From positions 124,001-188,000 of the forward strand of contig NZ_JAFMPW010000008.1 in assembly GCF_026126425.1 (NCBI RefSeq): a stretch of DNA of 64,000 nt, given 5' to 3'. The translations under genes were made by a program, and so were the position numbers. Shown here piece after piece: positions 35,102 to 40,696 of this stretch (its first letter is position 1; each line of letters starts with the position of its first letter). Source of the DNA: Muriicola sp. Z0-33. GTDB taxonomy: Bacteria; Bacteroidota; Bacteroidia; Flavobacteriales; Flavobacteriaceae. A model generated the notes under the pieces. It was not told where the DNA came from and made no database searches. It saw only the letters and a list, made by a program, of their open reading frames with translations.

Positions 35102-35653
35102 TTACTGGGTATTCAATAAAAAATGGACTTCGACCAGAACCTCCTGCGCTATTTTTTTGAATAACAGCTTTGGTACTTTAATATTGAATTCTTCTGGTTT
35201 GATCATAAAAACAGATTTCATTTCAATACCATCGGTATGCTTCTTTAAAGTGTTTTTAGTCGTTAAACTTCTGGTCAAACCATGAATGGTTAATTTACCT
35301 TCTATTGTAAATTCCTTTTCAGAGTAAGGGACTTCTTCTATATTGAAATCTATAATTCTACCCGTAAAATAGGCTTTTGGATAGCGTTCAGATTCTACAT
35401 AGTTTTCATTAAAGTGCTCCTGCATTAACGCCCGCTTAAACCTAAAATCTTTCATTAGCAAGACAGCAGCAAATTGGCCATTTTCCAATTGGAGTATGGC
35501 GTTCACCTCATTATTTACAGCGTAAATATCCTCAAGAGGAGTTGAGGCATTAAATGTAATAGCCCCTTCGGATGTTTTCAGATTGGTCTGTCCGATTATC
35601 AGATTGCCAAATAGAAGTAAAATAGCGGCTGATATTGAATTTTTCAATTCCAT
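35102..35653 (-). CDS. YceI-family periplasmic protein
   Basis: A 183-residue exported protein with a signal peptide (first ~21 residues, ending LIIGQ) and the lipocalin-like YceI fold: RTSEG-type start, FKRALMQEHFNENYVESERYPKAYFTG and FTIEGKLTIHGLTRSL are recognisable. YceI proteins bind isoprenoid lipids or quinones in a beta barrel. Its ATG directly follows the TAA of the haem lipoprotein gene (zero-base gap), so both are one transcript and likely one process. Confidence 0.85.
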   Translation of the reverse strand: MELKNSISAAILLLFGNLIIGQTNLKTSEGAITFNASTPLEDIYAVNNEVNAILQLENGQFAAVLLMKDFRFKRALMQEHFNENYVESERYPKAYFTGRIIDFNIEEVPYSEKEFTIEGKLTIHGLTRSLTTKNTLKKHTDGIEMKSVFMIKPEEFNIKVPKLLFKKIAQEVLVEVHFLLNTQ

Positions 35654-36031
35654 TTAGTTTTCCGGGAGCCCCTGGTCTATCCAGTCTTCAATAATCTGTC
35701 TGGTGTTAGCTGGTAGTCGTCCCTGTGGAGGCATTGGGTTTGATGAACTGTTGATTCTGGCCAACAGCGATCTGGTTTCCACTGCGTTTTTTACATCGTC
35801 ATAGGTCTCCAGGGACATTGGAGCATTGTTGACGGGTGGATTAGAATGACAAGACAAACAATTACTTTCAATTATGGCTTTAATATCTGCCTCGTAGTTC
35901 CGTGGCATGGGCATAGCCATAGGATCGTCATCAGACACAGGGTCTGGCATCTCTTCGGGATCGCTGCTTTTAGAACAACTACTTAAGATCAACATTAAGG
36001 TGAGCATAGCACCTGAGAGTAACTTTTTCAT
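35654..36031 (-). CDS. Monohaem c-type cytochrome lipoprotein (first copy)
   Basis: A 125-residue exported lipoprotein: signal peptide with lipobox LSSC (Cys19), a Pro/Asp/Met-rich linker to about residue 45, then a small cytochrome domain with CLSCH (Cys58, Cys61, His62) and a likely distal Met100 in NPMPP. The C-terminus PANTRQIIEDWIDQGLPEN is a typical cytochrome helix. It is clearly paralogous to the protein encoded at 37797-38159. It leads the yceI operon and is divergent from an ECF sigma gene across a 148-bp region with a 30-bp palindrome. Confidence 0.87.
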   Translation of the reverse strand: MKKLLSGAMLTLMLILSSCSKSSDPEEMPDPVSDDDPMAMPMPRNYEADIKAIIESNCLSCHSNPPVNNAPMSLETYDDVKNAVETRSLLARINSSSNPMPPQGRLPANTRQIIEDWIDQGLPEN

Positions 36032-36117
36032 AGCGATTAATAGATTTATACCTGGCTAAATACAATTATATAATAACCAGGCAGTTAAAGTTTTTATTAT
36101 TTAGATGTAGCAAACTA

Positions 36118-36147
36118 AAAAAGGTTACAAAATTTTGTAACCTTTTT
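36118..36147. promoter_or_regulatory. Perfect 30-bp palindrome in a divergent promoter region
   Basis: The centre GGTTACAAAATTTTGTAACC is extended by five A and five T on the two sides, giving 15 perfect pairs. It lies between the divergent cytochrome/yceI operon (start 36031) and the ECF sigma gene (start 36180). No gene ends here, so a terminator has no obvious use. The spaced GTTAC/GTAAC halves are compatible with a Crp/Fnr-type dimer site. As RNA it would also form a strong hairpin with a U-run. Confidence 0.7.
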
Positions 36148-36179
36148 ACAATTCAAGCATCTAAGGTAAAAGCACACTT

Positions 36180-36848
36180 ATGAATTCTCTGCCTTTTCGC
36201 GAACACCAAAGATGGAAAATTTCGGATGAGGAAGTCATAAGAAAAGTGCTTGCTGGTGAAAAAGCCTTCTTCGAATTACTGATGCGCCGGTATAATCAAA
36301 AACTTTTCAGGGTAGTTGCAGGGTACCTAAGCAATAAGGAAGATGTTGCAGATGTAATGCAGGAAACTTATTTAAAGGCATATCAAAAATTAGATCAGTA
36401 TAAATTCAAGGCAACTTTTTCTACCTGGTTAATAAGAATTGCGATAAATGAGGCCCTTGGGAAGAACAGAAAGGACAGTAAATATGTTAAGTTTAATAGT
36501 GATACGGATGAATTTCAATCAAAAATTATTGAATTGCCCACGGCGGTAAATCAAAATCCGGAACACCAGCTTATCCATGCAGAAACCAAAATCATGCTCG
36601 AAAAAGCCATTTTAAACCTATCTGCCAAGTATAGGATTGTTTATATGCTGAGGGAAGTTGAAGGGATGTCTATCACCGAGATAGGTGAATGCCTGAATTT
36701 GTCTTCCGTAAATGTCAAAGTTAGATTATTCAGGTCGAGGAAAATGATCAGGGAAGAATTGTATCGGCTCTCGGCCACTTCGGACCCATTTGAATTTGGA
36801 TTTAAACATTGCGATGCACTGGTAAACAAGGTGCTCAAAGCTATTTGA
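36180..36848 (+). CDS. ECF RNA polymerase sigma factor (orphan, second module)
   Basis: A 222-residue ECF sigma factor: region 2 with NKEDVADVMQETYLKAYQKL and FSTWLIRIAINEAL, region 4 with LSAKYRIVYMLREVEGMSITEIGECLNLSSVNVKVRLFRSRKMIREEL. Unlike the other two ECF factors in the window it has no membrane anti-sigma-like gene beside it. A tail of about 30 residues follows region 4 (FEFGFKHCDALVNKVLKAI, with one Cys after a His), which could sense a ligand. Next to it is a DUF5777 gene in the same direction. Confidence 0.9.
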   Translation: MNSLPFREHQRWKISDEEVIRKVLAGEKAFFELLMRRYNQKLFRVVAGYLSNKEDVADVMQETYLKAYQKLDQYKFKATFSTWLIRIAINEALGKNRKDSKYVKFNSDTDEFQSKIIELPTAVNQNPEHQLIHAETKIMLEKAILNLSAKYRIVYMLREVEGMSITEIGECLNLSSVNVKVRLFRSRKMIREELYRLSATSDPFEFGFKHCDALVNKVLKAI

Positions 36849-36936
36849 CACTTATGAGATAATTCAAAATTATAAAAACATAGTGCTTATTTCTGATGAT
36901 AAGCTTATTCTATAATCATTTTAAAAATCTCCTGCT

Positions 36937-37800
36937 ATGAAAAAGATTTTTTTGATCTACATCCTGTTTTTTCTTCCCTTGAATGTCATTTCCCAGGATG
37001 ATTTAATTTTAGAAATTGATAAACAGGACAGTATTCCATATGCCAGCGCTGTATTTAAAGGCTTGAAAATTATCAATCTGGAATCAACTAAACTGGCACC
37101 AAGACGAAGTTTGTATTTTGTAGTATCGCACCGTTTTGGTTCCGTAAAAGATGGGCTACGAGAGTTTTTTGGCTTGGACCAGGCAGTAACGCGCCTGCAT
37201 CTTATTTATGGCCTAAGCGATGCATGGAACGTTGGTTTTTCCAGGAGTTCCTATCAAAAAACGTATGACCTCAATACCAAATACCGTATTATTCGACAGA
37301 GAAAAGGAGGTTTCCCGATGACCCTGGTTGGATTTAACGGCATAATTCTCAATGGAAATCTGGATGAAGCATTACTGCCGGGCCTTGAATTTAAAGACCG
37401 CCTGGGATTTATTTCCCAATTGTTGATTTCAAGAAAATTCACTGAAAGCTTATCGTTAGAGTTAGCTCCTTCTTTTTTCTATGACAACTATCTGCCAGAA
37501 ACTTCTGGAGATCAGGACGAGATGAAAGCACAGTTTTCAATAGGAGTAGGGGGGCGTTATAAAATTTCCAAAAGACTATCTCTGAATATTGATTATGCCG
37601 CCCATTTGAATCGTGCCGACAATAACCCTTTTAATGATCCTTTGTCTATTGGTGTTGATATAGAAACCGGAGGTCATGTTTTTCAACTCCATTTCACTAA
37701 TGCACAGCCCTCTTTCGAAAATGGATTCCTGGGCCAGGCTAATGGTAGCTGGAAAGACGGAGTAATCTTTTTTGGCTTTAACCTGAGCAGGACTTTTTAG
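36937..37800 (+). CDS. DUF5777 outer-membrane beta-barrel protein
   Basis: A 287-residue protein with a signal peptide (residues 1-20, ending NVISQ), amphipathic beta strands and a C-terminal aromatic residue (LSRTF), as expected for an outer-membrane barrel. VVSHRFGSVKDGLREFFGLDQA and LGFISQLLISRKF fit what I know of DUF5777. Function unknown. Its stop codon overlaps that of the second haem lipoprotein on the other strand by three bases. Confidence 0.82.
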   Translation: MKKIFLIYILFFLPLNVISQDDLILEIDKQDSIPYASAVFKGLKIINLESTKLAPRRSLYFVVSHRFGSVKDGLREFFGLDQAVTRLHLIYGLSDAWNVGFSRSSYQKTYDLNTKYRIIRQRKGGFPMTLVGFNGIILNGNLDEALLPGLEFKDRLGFISQLLISRKFTESLSLELAPSFFYDNYLPETSGDQDEMKAQFSIGVGGRYKISKRLSLNIDYAAHLNRADNNPFNDPLSIGVDIETGGHVFQLHFTNAQPSFENGFLGQANGSWKDGVIFFGFNLSRTF

Positions 37801-38159
37801 TTTTCCTTTAAGCCTTGTGTTACCCAGGCATCGAAGATACGCCTGGTCTCCTTTGGCATTAAGCCGTCTGGCGGCATGGGATTGGTAGCACTATTGATCT
37901 TTTGGATCAAATCCCTGCTCTCAACGGCATTTTTAACGGCCTCATAGGTCGTAAGTGGGATAGAAGCACCATTGTTTGGCGGGTCTGTGTGGCAGGCGAT
38001 ACAATTGGTTTGTACAATTGGTTTGATATTACCTTCATAACTGATATCGGTAAAGAGCAATTCGTCTTCTTCAGCAGAAGGTTCATCCTGGCTAGTTGTA
38101 TCATCAGAACAGCCTAGCATCAAAATAGAGAGAAAAATAATATAAATCCTCAATTGCAC
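37797..38159 (-). CDS. Monohaem c-type cytochrome lipoprotein (second copy)
   Basis: A 120-residue lipoprotein with a GTG start, lipobox LMLGC (Cys17), an acidic linker, CIACH (Cys53, Cys56, His57) and distal Met95 in NPMPP. From the CxxCH on it is over half identical by eye to the first copy, including VKNAVE and the spacing to the C-terminus. It is oriented like the S9 peptidase gene behind it, 82 bp away. It converges on the DUF5777 gene with nested stop codons. Confidence 0.85.
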   Translation of the reverse strand: MQLRIYIIFLSILMLGCSDDTTSQDEPSAEEDELLFTDISYEGNIKPIVQTNCIACHTDPPNNGASIPLTTYEAVKNAVESRDLIQKINSATNPMPPDGLMPKETRRIFDAWVTQGLKEN

Positions 38160-38241: not shown

Positions 38242-40284
38242 TTACTCCTTTTCCGGGATGGCTATTTCCTCTTCCCAGATATACCTGCCAAACCATTGCC
38301 AGTTATGCCAGGTTGCTGCAAGTCGCTCTTTCGGTTTGTTAATTCCATGACCGAAACCCTTATAAATAATCAATTTGGTCGGCGCCCCTATATCCTGCAA
38401 GCCTTGAAATAATTCGTAGGCATTAGCTGTCGGTACTCGCTTATCAAATTCCCCATGCTGGATAAGTGTAGGGGTGACGGCCTTATTGATATTGGTCATA
38501 GGAGACGTCTTTTCGTAAATCTCTTTATCCGACCAGGGAGTGGCTTTTAAGTACTGCCGCGTAAACGGATGGATATCGGTATTCACGTAATAAGTCATCC
38601 AATTAGAAATTCCGGCACCGACGGATATTGCACTAAATTTATCCGAATTGGTTGTGAGAAAGGCCGAGATATAGCCCCCCTGACTCCAACCCATGGCACC
38701 AATTTTTTCGCTATCAATCATCCCGCGATCTTCCAGATATTTAACCCCAGAAAGCACATCCCAGGCATCCCCAACTCCGAGATTTTTAACATTCAGGGAT
38801 CTGAATTTTTCTCCATAACCTGCCGAACCGCGATAATTGGGCCTTAAAACCAGCGCCCCTTTATTTACCCATTGCGTGACAGGGTACACATAAGAGGGGA
38901 CAGCCGAAGGCGTAGAAATCCCAGTGGGTCCTCCATGAATTATAACCAGTAAGGGATATTTTTTTGCGGGACTGTAATCCCTGGGTTTGTGCAAAACGCC
39001 TTCAATTTCGGCCCCGTCTTCGCTTTTCCAGGAAATCACTTCGCTTTTAGCATACTTCCAATTTTTTATTTGACTGCTGGCATTGGTCAAGGCCTTAAGC
39101 TGTTTCATCCGAACATCAGTGCTATAAACCTCTGTTAAGTCTTCATTATTTGCCGCTGTAAAAGCCAGTTGCTCGCCATCAGCAGAAAAGGAAAAGCCCC
39201 AAATACGTTCCGGAATTTCGGATATTATTGTGGCTTTCCCACTTTTGGGATCTATTTTGACTAGCGGGCGAATCGTTTTTTGCCAGGCCACTCCAAATAT
39301 TCCCTTCGAATTCCATTCCAGACCGTAAATATTCTCGTCAAAATCCTGGGCTAATTGTCGGTCATTTGTGCCGTCAATATCTATTCTGAAGAGCTTGTTA
39401 TTCTTGTAATAGTTAGAGGTGCTGTCTGCAAGACTACTGCCGTAAAGAATACTCTTACTATCTGGTGACCAAGCCCTTAAGCCATCAAAACTGGGATTGT
39501 TGATCAAGGTTTTAATCGCTCCGGACTCAAGGGTAAGCAGTGAAATATCGGCTTTAAAAAAGCTATTTCTCAACGGGTCTGGTTGATGTTCAATGGCCAT
39601 TTTATGACCATCAGGAGACCATAGAAAATTGTTTATTGAAAATGTAAGAGAATCTATTACTTTCTCTGGTTTCAAAGTAGCTTTATAGAGAGAATCGTTC
39701 AATTGGTTGGGTAGTGGCATCGCATTTAACTTGGCCGGATTAAAATTGATCAGCCAAAGTTCATTGAGCCCGTACTCCTGGTCTTCCACGGCAAAACCGC
39801 CGTAAAGAGCTTCGCGTTGCTTTTCCTTTTCCGACCTGTCTTCTGCTTGTAAATAAGCAATTTTCTTACTATCGGGGCTCCAATGGTAAGCCGATACGCT
39901 TCCCTCTGCATTACTAATCTGGAAGGCTTCCCCGCCTGCTAATCTCAGAGCGTATAACTGCGTTTTGTTCCCTCTATCGGACCTAAAGGCGATCCATTGG
40001 CCATCAGGAGACCATTTTGGATTATTACTGCTACCTTTTTTGTTGTTCGTAATTTGAAAAGGTGGCGCACCATCTTTACTCAACCAAAGTTCGGTATCGT
40101 ATCTGTTTTCTTCCCAATCCACCACAGAAGATTGATATACCACATGCTTGCCGTTTGGAGAAATCACTGCACCCGAAACTGAACGCAAGGAAATTATTTC
40201 TTCAAACGATGGCTCGTGTAAACTTTGGGCGTGGCTATAATTCATAACAACCAACAATACCAGTAACCGAAATATTTTTTTCAT
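38242..40284 (-). CDS. S9 prolyl-oligopeptidase-family serine peptidase
   Basis: A 680-residue exported peptidase: signal peptide (MKKIFRLLVLLVVMNYSHAQ), an N-terminal WD-like beta propeller with repeated WSPDG motifs, and a C-terminal alpha/beta-hydrolase domain. GWSQGGY holds the catalytic Ser, GEFDKRVP the Asp and FGHG the His. The 16 extra codons upstream in the open frame were rejected because they precede the signal peptide. It probably cleaves peptides in the periplasm. Same direction as the VOC and gnd genes upstream (gaps of 40 and 25 bp). Confidence 0.92.
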   Translation of the reverse strand: MKKIFRLLVLLVVMNYSHAQSLHEPSFEEIISLRSVSGAVISPNGKHVVYQSSVVDWEENRYDTELWLSKDGAPPFQITNNKKGSSNNPKWSPDGQWIAFRSDRGNKTQLYALRLAGGEAFQISNAEGSVSAYHWSPDSKKIAYLQAEDRSEKEKQREALYGGFAVEDQEYGLNELWLINFNPAKLNAMPLPNQLNDSLYKATLKPEKVIDSLTFSINNFLWSPDGHKMAIEHQPDPLRNSFFKADISLLTLESGAIKTLINNPSFDGLRAWSPDSKSILYGSSLADSTSNYYKNNKLFRIDIDGTNDRQLAQDFDENIYGLEWNSKGIFGVAWQKTIRPLVKIDPKSGKATIISEIPERIWGFSFSADGEQLAFTAANNEDLTEVYSTDVRMKQLKALTNASSQIKNWKYAKSEVISWKSEDGAEIEGVLHKPRDYSPAKKYPLLVIIHGGPTGISTPSAVPSYVYPVTQWVNKGALVLRPNYRGSAGYGEKFRSLNVKNLGVGDAWDVLSGVKYLEDRGMIDSEKIGAMGWSQGGYISAFLTTNSDKFSAISVGAGISNWMTYYVNTDIHPFTRQYLKATPWSDKEIYEKTSPMTNINKAVTPTLIQHGEFDKRVPTANAYELFQGLQDIGAPTKLIIYKGFGHGINKPKERLAATWHNWQWFGRYIWEEEIAIPEKE

Positions 40285-40324
40285 AGCAATTTTTAGTGTT
40301 AAAAGGGCGATGAGATTCTTCGTT

Positions 40325-40696
40325 TTATACATGCTGATCTATAAGCAAAGGGTTTCCATCGGGGTCTGTAATCATGAAACTTGCCGGGCCAGATCCGCTT
40401 TCATCCGCTTCGCTCATCAAAGAAACCCCTTCTTTTTTCAGATGTTTCTGTATTTCTCTAACATCGTCAAAAGAGCTTAGTTTTGAAGCATTTTCGTCCC
40501 AACCGGGGTTAAATGTTAGGATGTTTTGTTCAAACATGCCCTGGAACAAACCAATAAGGGCGTTTTCATTTTTCATAATAAGATAATTCCGCTCTAGCTC
40601 CCCGGCAAATACAGTGAAACCAAGGGTTTCGTAAAACTGTTTCGAGACCACTAAATCTTTTACTGCCAAACTGATTGAAAAAGCTCCTAGTTTCAT
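40325..40696 (-). CDS. VOC-family (glyoxalase/dioxygenase fold) protein
   Basis: A 123-residue single-domain VOC protein: the beta-alpha-beta-beta-beta start FSISLAVKDLVVSKQFYETLGF and the end FMITDPDGNPLLIDQHV are the family hallmarks. Family members bind a metal and act in isomerisation, epoxide opening or antibiotic binding. Substrate not readable. It sits between gnd and the S9 peptidase gene in one direction. Confidence 0.82.
   Translation of the reverse strand: MKLGAFSISLAVKDLVVSKQFYETLGFTVFAGELERNYLIMKNENALIGLFQGMFEQNILTFNPGWDENASKLSSFDDVREIQKHLKKEGVSLMSEADESGSGPASFMITDPDGNPLLIDQHV

Follow-up and report, generated by a model that had tools for sequence, protein, structure and literature searches.

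A conserved DUF5777, haem lipoprotein and YceI gene cluster in Muriicola sp. Z0-33 as a candidate envelope redox module with a predicted symmetrical two-way promoter

Electron conduits of the MtrCAB and Pcc types combine multihaem cytochromes with a large barrel, and Cyc2 carries a haem motif and a barrel in one chain. The lipocalin BcnA is a member of the YceI family. In Burkholderia cenocepacia, BcnA and the cytochrome b561 LcoA are reported to limit lipid peroxidation, and regeneration of the bound quinone is put forward as the authors' proposal (PMC9113575). PccH of Geobacter sulfurreducens is described as a low-potential periplasmic cytochrome with a proposed role in electron transfer, although not in the first step (PMC4717640). 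Here, we analyzed five neighbouring genes (positions 35102-38159) within a stretch of 64,000 nucleotides from Muriicola sp. Z0-33 (contig NZ_JAFMPW010000008.1, positions 124,001 to 188,000), which we call the window. They encode two putative haem lipoproteins (lipoproteins 1 and 2, genes cyt1 and cyt2), a YceI-family protein, an extracytoplasmic function (ECF) sigma factor and a predicted outer-membrane barrel of the DUF5777 family. Our reading is that the cluster serves electron transfer or antioxidant defence in the envelope, with direction and partners inferred; that it is a redox module of the envelope controlled by a private ECF sigma factor we give an even chance. The main reason for calling the module redox is that redox proteins recur among its neighbours.

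As far as the accessible text on BcnA-LcoA goes, the locus resembles that system in the genetic tie between a YceI-type secreted protein and a cytochrome and in the idea of a quinone-based antioxidant, but it has a monohaem c-type lipoprotein instead of a b561 and, in addition, an outer-membrane barrel and an ECF sigma factor. No b561 gene, whether joined to YceI or next to it, is present among the five genes, to which the search for this family was confined. By analogy, the cluster may work like BcnA-LcoA without being a member of that system. PccH shares with the lipoproteins a single CxxCH haem and a moderate likeness in predicted fold, whereas the module protein is a lipoprotein, has 20% identity to PccH over the aligned part and scores below the cut-off of the PccH family PF22297. 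As in the MtrCAB and Pcc conduits, a barrel and a c-type cytochrome are encoded together, and at one relative's locus (L043) DUF5777 lies near MtrC/MtrF-like cytochromes. An MtrCAB-like conduit was rejected because each lipoprotein has one CxxCH and the predicted 12-stranded barrel is small, and a Cyc2-like fusion because the haem and barrel genes are separate and on opposite strands. The KdgM/NanC porins and FapF share the small barrel fold of DUF5777, but no sequence relation to them was found. DUF5777 is not named in the open-access literature searched, nor did we find a prior description of the system there; subscription papers and preprints lay mostly outside that search. The original prediction of an undescribed system holds, within this literature, for the DUF5777-lipoprotein-YceI combination.

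Genes for DUF5777 proteins were present in 31 of 60 and 123 of 249 sampled genomes of the family and in 115 of 296 genomes of the phylum, the window's genome counted. We labelled neighbouring genes as OB, CYT, YCEI, SIG, T9SS or DOXX with models built for this analysis and compared gene presence within 2 kb of DUF5777 with presence at 3.5-5.5 kb as a distance control. Three sets of loci were used: 40 family loci, from 42 family-level hits after two partial genes were left out; 38 phylum loci, from 40 chosen for diversity after exclusion of L196 and L201, which have no labelled DUF5777 open reading frame (ORF); and 80 named loci, which are the best matches of at least 589 and so are biased to close relatives. 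In the family, the haem lipoprotein was found within 2 kb at 35 of 40 loci, YceI at 33 and an OB-fold gene (PF12869) at 32, compared with 1, 0 and 0 of 37 in the distance control. Across the phylum, the corresponding counts were 31, 30 and 6 of 38 loci, with neither the lipoprotein nor YceI in any of the 38 control regions, and among the named loci they were 77, 74 and 72 of 80 (control, 0, 1 and 1 of 78). Lipoprotein and YceI were both near DUF5777 at 28 of 40 family, 71 of 80 named and 25 of 38 phylum loci. The named loci come from genera including Xanthomarina, Aquimarina, Flavobacterium, Winogradskyella, Muriicola, Zeaxanthinibacter, Eudoraea and Poritiphilus; the lipoprotein gene was not found at the Eudoraea (L103) and Poritiphilus (L105) loci. 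No OB-fold partner was detected in the window's genome, where a member of this weakly conserved family could be missed.

The original prediction had pointed to co-occurrence of DUF5777, the CxxCH/NPMPP lipoprotein and YceI in many genera as a check on the module, and we observed it strongly and phylum-wide. Its description of a self-contained five-gene unit proved too narrow. The common core comprises DUF5777, the lipoprotein and YceI, mostly joined in the family by the OB-fold gene; inspection of four syntenic relatives revealed no cyt2. Nor is the sigma subtype a general companion of the module: 29 copies are present in 24 of the 249 family genomes (the window's included), and at least 7 of these 29, again counting the window's, lie within 7 kb of DUF5777.

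The genes around DUF5777 are frequently of redox type and vary between loci. Genes with a type IX secretion system (T9SS) tail occurred within 2 kb of DUF5777 at 14 of the 40 family loci (control, 1 of 37), at 38 of the 80 named loci (control, 3 of 78) and at 8 of the 38 phylum loci (control, 3 of 38). At the cargo-bearing loci L034, L035, L039, L052, L061 and L068, a secreted protein of changing domain type, in most cases with a T9SS tail, is encoded within or beside the operon. The front domains named by Pfam, each from a single example, were a plastocyanin-like cupredoxin, DOMON (27.5 bits, below the cut-off of 32.7), Reeler and CBM96; other cargoes had no named domain, and one looked lamin-tail-like by eye. 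When cargo types were assigned by eye from sequence clusters, cupredoxins occurred at 5 and DOMON proteins at 3 of the 40 family loci. A Spondin_N protein, on which no T9SS tail was detected, borders one DUF5777 operon. Elsewhere in the phylum, DUF5777 neighbours include a dihaem cytochrome c, a Rieske protein and a CxxCH-bearing T9SS protein (Temptin_C/CxxCH). A second DUF5777 subtype adjoins NrfD and Fer4 genes at three of the 40 family loci and at one of the 38 in the phylum set. At L043 (4008-14967), the one of these loci analyzed further, the neighbourhood also encodes a 6-haem lipoprotein and NHL repeats alongside the NrfD and Fer4 proteins, and an 11-haem protein is encoded a few kb away on the opposite strand. 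Both the 6-haem and the 11-haem protein match MtrC/MtrF-like domains, and L043 looks like an extracellular electron transfer locus.

Within the window, genes were called mechanically as longest ORFs, and this check confirmed the five genes as real and correctly described (Table 1). The YceI start codon ATG immediately follows the stop codon of cyt1. DUF5777 and cyt2 converge and overlap in their stop codons, as had been noted. The haem domains of the two lipoproteins share 43 of 80 residues (54%), in line with the statement that they are over half identical. The DUF5777 gene starts 88 bp downstream of the sigma gene on the same strand. A palindromic, promoter-like region that reads in both directions (36101-36164) had been overlooked.

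Table 1. Features of the locus, with positions in the window
Feature	Position	Strand	Basis
Secreted lipocalin-like protein of the YceI family (PF04264), presumed to bind a lipid or quinone, 183 aa	35102..35653	-	Pfam match
Putative monohaem lipoprotein 1 (cyt1), 125 aa, CxxCH, candidate distal Met in NPMPP	35654..36031	-	conservation, AlphaFold 2 model
Predicted ECF promoter toward lipoprotein 1-YceI, TGTAACC-N15-CATCTAA	36101..36129	-	pattern search
Perfect palindrome GGTTACAAAATTTTGTAACC, both predicted -35 boxes inside	36123..36142	no strand	sequence symmetry
Predicted ECF promoter toward sigma-DUF5777, TGTAACC-N15-CATCTAA	36136..36164	+	pattern search
ECF sigma factor, NF008888/PRK11922 type, conserved C-terminal tail FEFGxxxCD (consensus)	36180..36848	+	profiles
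DUF5777 (PF19089), predicted 12-stranded outer-membrane barrel, 287 aa	36937..37800	+	Pfam, AlphaFold 2 model
Putative monohaem lipoprotein 2 (cyt2), 120 aa, GTG start, convergent with DUF5777	37797..38159	-	ORF, conservation

The sigma factor matched the NF008888 profile with 216.2 bits (cut-off 204), and the Sigma70_r2 and r4_2 domains were both recognized. As the original prediction stated, it has no anti-sigma neighbour, with none of the five genes matching anti-sigma families in Pfam and NCBIfam profiles, and its tail contains a Cys; the Cys-Asp pair of this tail is kept in 29 of 29 sigma proteins. Some ECF factors without an anti-sigma factor are described as having C-terminal extensions such as Cys-rich or SnoaL-like domains (PMC8999054). 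Compared with the factors covered there, the module's sigma factor is likewise an orphan with a conserved Cys tail, but this tail is short, has one conserved Cys and is neither Cys-rich nor SnoaL-like.

The palindrome GGTTACAAAATTTTGTAACC occupies the gap between cyt1 and the sigma gene, and its halves form the predicted -35 boxes, TGTAACC, of two divergent sites with the same spacing and the same -10-like boxes, CATCTAA. Across the whole genome of 4.15 Mb, the pattern TGTAACC-N15-CATCTAA has two exact matches, none with a single mismatch and 25 with two mismatches. A wider regulon was not detected, as the pattern with up to 2 mismatches gave 27 genome matches versus 38 for the reversed control and a relaxed pattern gave 13 versus 25. 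Only the two exact sites stand out genome-wide, and thus the predicted regulon is one promoter pair. Upstream of the 29 sigma copies, the 20-base palindrome was recovered with up to 2 mismatches in 8 (0 in shuffled sequences), up to 4 in 16 (mean 0.08) and up to 6 in 22 (1.3). It is shorter by one base in some other copies, and one of the 29 (L272, 32% identity) is a distant paralogue without such a palindrome or strict promoter upstream. A different ECF sigma gene (L033:2059-2628) has a TGTAAC-N15-RTCTAA site just upstream, which indicates that the motif is not exclusive to the module's sigma subtype. Separately, the window's genome has a near-identical site pair, TGTAACAAAA-TGTTAA-TCCTCGTCTA, at C22:74129-74156 (minus strand) and C33:72183-72210 (plus strand), which may be the promoters of another ECF sigma factor.

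The copies near DUF5777 lie at distances of 0.2 kb in the window's own genome, 0.6 kb in G523 and G019, 1.1 kb in G494, 1.2 kb in G442, 5.5 kb in G038 and 6.3 kb in G027. Chance linkage was estimated at about 0.1, on the basis of one or two DUF5777 loci per about 4 Mb and with copies counted regardless of kinship. DUF5777 is present in at least 15 of the 23 other sigma-bearing genomes, and the sigma gene stands directly upstream of an OB-DUF5777 operon in L086 and L096. In G027, one sigma gene faces a set of genes for DUF4142, cupredoxin, cytochrome and cytochrome c assembly proteins. The idea of a dedicated regulator has good, though not conclusive, support in this genome: the promoter pair is unique in the genome and sigma-DUF5777 linkage exceeds the chance estimate. 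Among relatives, the sigma factor is optional. In the genome of Muriicola sp. Z0-33, the cluster probably has a private regulator.

The locus lies in a chromosomal slot between two genes that we take to be carB and gnd, and the carB and gnd flanks were matched by tblastn at 91-93% and 71-80% identity. The slot contains YceI-cyt-DUF5777 in Zeaxanthinibacter and Muriicola and YceI-DUF5777 in Eudoraea and Poritiphilus; sigma, cyt2 and the promoter pair were not found in the slot of any of these four. In G018, it holds DoxX and the sigma gene without DUF5777. The window joins both contents, with lipoprotein 1-YceI in the place of DoxX, and the two-way promoter appears to have been re-wired from DoxX to lipoprotein 1-YceI. 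A DoxX of this type was not found in the window's genome by a search that had no positive control. Between the module and gnd (38242-40696), the window also encodes a prolyl-oligopeptidase-like and a VOC-fold protein, both named by eye; neither gene was detected at the loci of the four syntenic relatives.

Both lipoproteins scored below the cut-off of 27 for Cytochrome_CBB3 (25.0 and 22.1 bits), neither reached the cut-off of 24.4 for PccH (14.1 and 13.8 bits), and cytochrome c models gave only sub-cut-off matches. In 32 aligned relatives, the lipobox Cys C19, the CxxCH residues C58, C61 and H62 and one Trp are invariant, and M100-P101, of which the Met is the candidate distal haem ligand, is at least 90% conserved. 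The haem motif is CX3-4CH in some relatives. With a lipobox, a single CxxCH and a candidate distal ligand each, the proteins have the sequence features of a monohaem c-type cytochrome lipoprotein. The haem domain of lipoprotein 1 is predicted to be helical by AlphaFold 2 (predicted local distance difference test score [pLDDT] 84.4, predicted template modelling score [pTM] 0.65). Across 141 lipoproteins, acidic residues were enriched at positions +4 (0.38) and +6 to +8 (0.40-0.67), displaced from the published position of the lipoprotein export signal (LES). The LES of Bacteroidota surface lipoproteins is described as a polar residue followed by acidic ones at about +2 to +6 (PMC5080379). The possibility that cyt2 is a recent duplicate of cyt1 was rejected: in the tree, cyt1 joins the lipoproteins of Zeaxanthinibacter and Muriicola, with local supports of 0.57 and 0.72, and cyt2 falls elsewhere (0.62-0.78), all of these supports being weak.

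DUF5777 matched PF19089 with 286.7 bits (cut-off 23.1), and its AlphaFold model is a 12-strand barrel (pLDDT 89.3, pTM 0.82). The closest solved folds were FapF and the KdgM/NanC porins (Z 16.7-17.7; KdgM/NanC 16.7-17.5), and a profile search found no solved relative by sequence, KdgM/NanC included. Barrels of this size look alike; hence, the match to small porins says little, and the model points to a barrel, not to a function. YceI matched PF04264 with 51.4 bits (cut-off 23.7, E 1.9e-13); against solved structures it had only weak matches by sequence, among them two YceI entries with E 0.32 and 0.81. The genome has a second DUF5777 copy (L002:1030-2744; C49, about 136 kb), located between a CxxCH lipoprotein and a cytochrome c of 135 aa.

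A working model of an envelope redox module under its own sigma factor would run as follows. The divergent TGTAACC-N15-CATCTAA sites would be sigma-dependent promoters, from which the active factor would turn on its own gene and DUF5777 in one direction and lipoprotein 1 and YceI in the other, creating a positive feedback loop. YceI could carry a quinone or other isoprenoid between the membranes, and the membrane-anchored monohaem lipoproteins could trade electrons with YceI-borne quinone. In the outer membrane, their partner would be the DUF5777 barrel; electrons, or else a small redox compound, would pass through it or alongside it toward targets in that membrane or at the surface. Candidates for these targets in some relatives are the cupredoxin, DOMON or haem proteins that are secreted by the T9SS and whose genes lie within the operon or next to it. 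As no anti-sigma gene adjoins, we propose that a redox or metal signal acting on the conserved Cys tail may switch the sigma factor. At its most specific, the model becomes an undescribed, Bacteroidota-wide outer-membrane electron port, made of a separate monohaem lipoprotein and the 12-strand DUF5777 barrel, fed with electrons by YceI-borne quinone, fitted with a T9SS redox terminal exchangeable from genus to genus and placed under an optional, self-amplifying ECF sigma factor through the symmetrical two-way promoter; in this full form we think it unlikely.

Several observations weigh against a sigma-controlled redox module. Within 2 kb of DUF5777, the cytochrome, YceI or both are missing at 12 of the 40 family loci and at 13 of the 38 phylum loci. 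An electron conduit would be expected to be wider than a 12-strand barrel, and a redox role is not evident for the CBM96, lamin-tail-like and Spondin_N cargoes. The best solved neighbour of the lipoprotein model is PccH (4rlr; Z 8.7, root mean square deviation 2.5, 82 aligned residues, 20% identity after realignment), a moderate likeness that counts for little because this Z lies in the range that the tool flags for helical models and may reflect a common arrangement only, because Foldseek gave no match at E <= 0.001 and because the PccH Pfam score is below cut-off. On the regulatory side, the window contains two promoter sites compared with 0.02 expected, but the pattern was derived from these same two sites and the chance figure is after the fact. 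More than 4 mismatches separate 13 of the 29 sigma upstream regions from the 20-base palindrome. Of the 29 regions, 5 have the strict promoter pattern on each side and 14 have it on at least one, so the -10 part is conserved less well. The divergent neighbour is a DoxX-type gene, 90-156 bp away, for 20 of the 29 copies, and such a sigma gene lies within 2 kb of DUF5777 at only 2 of 40 family, 2 of 80 named and 0 of 38 phylum loci. The four syntenic relatives without the sigma gene also lack the promoter pair, which implies that the regulator is not essential to the module.

Some of these points fit other explanations. The recurrent pairing of the sigma subtype with DoxX, together with the DUF4142, cupredoxin and cytochrome c assembly genes beside one copy, would suit a lipid-peroxide defence of the BcnA-LcoA kind, for which the Burkholderia pair of lipocalin and neighbouring cytochrome b561, reported to limit lipid peroxidation (PMC9113575), is the precedent. 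Reduced quinone on YceI would then quench envelope lipid peroxyl radicals and be regenerated by the haem lipoprotein in place of b561, and sigma would be an oxidative-stress switch. We regard this as a tentative alternative, as there is no b561 among the five genes and the outer-membrane barrel and the T9SS surface cargoes of relatives are left unexplained. That DUF5777 is an ordinary small-solute porin like KdgM/NanC, with the haem lipoprotein and YceI serving only its insertion or sensing and no electron flow across the outer membrane, seems improbable: in structure it comes closest to sugar-acid porins and a polypeptide channel, but a fold match of this type is hardly informative, the CxxCH residues are invariant and redox proteins keep recurring nearby. 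The sigma factor might instead be a hitch-hiker at the carB-gnd slot that controls only itself and, elsewhere, DoxX, as the DoxX-sigma pair in the slot of G018 and the sigma-free slots of the four syntenic relatives would allow. This, too, we consider improbable, given that the leftward promoter half faces cyt1-YceI with identical boxes and spacing, that DUF5777 lies within 7 kb of the sigma gene in at least 6 other genomes and that the sigma gene immediately precedes OB-DUF5777 in two loci. Chance neighbourhood without a shared function is scarcely credible in view of the phylum-wide clustering and the clean distance control.

Should the module carry electrons across the outer membrane or along it, Bacteroidota would have a widespread redox system that has been overlooked, perhaps one whose surface end can be exchanged. 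Owing to the symmetry of the promoter, the claim of a private regulator is testable, and the carB-gnd slot suggests how a sigma factor and its two-way promoter can be re-wired from DoxX to another operon.

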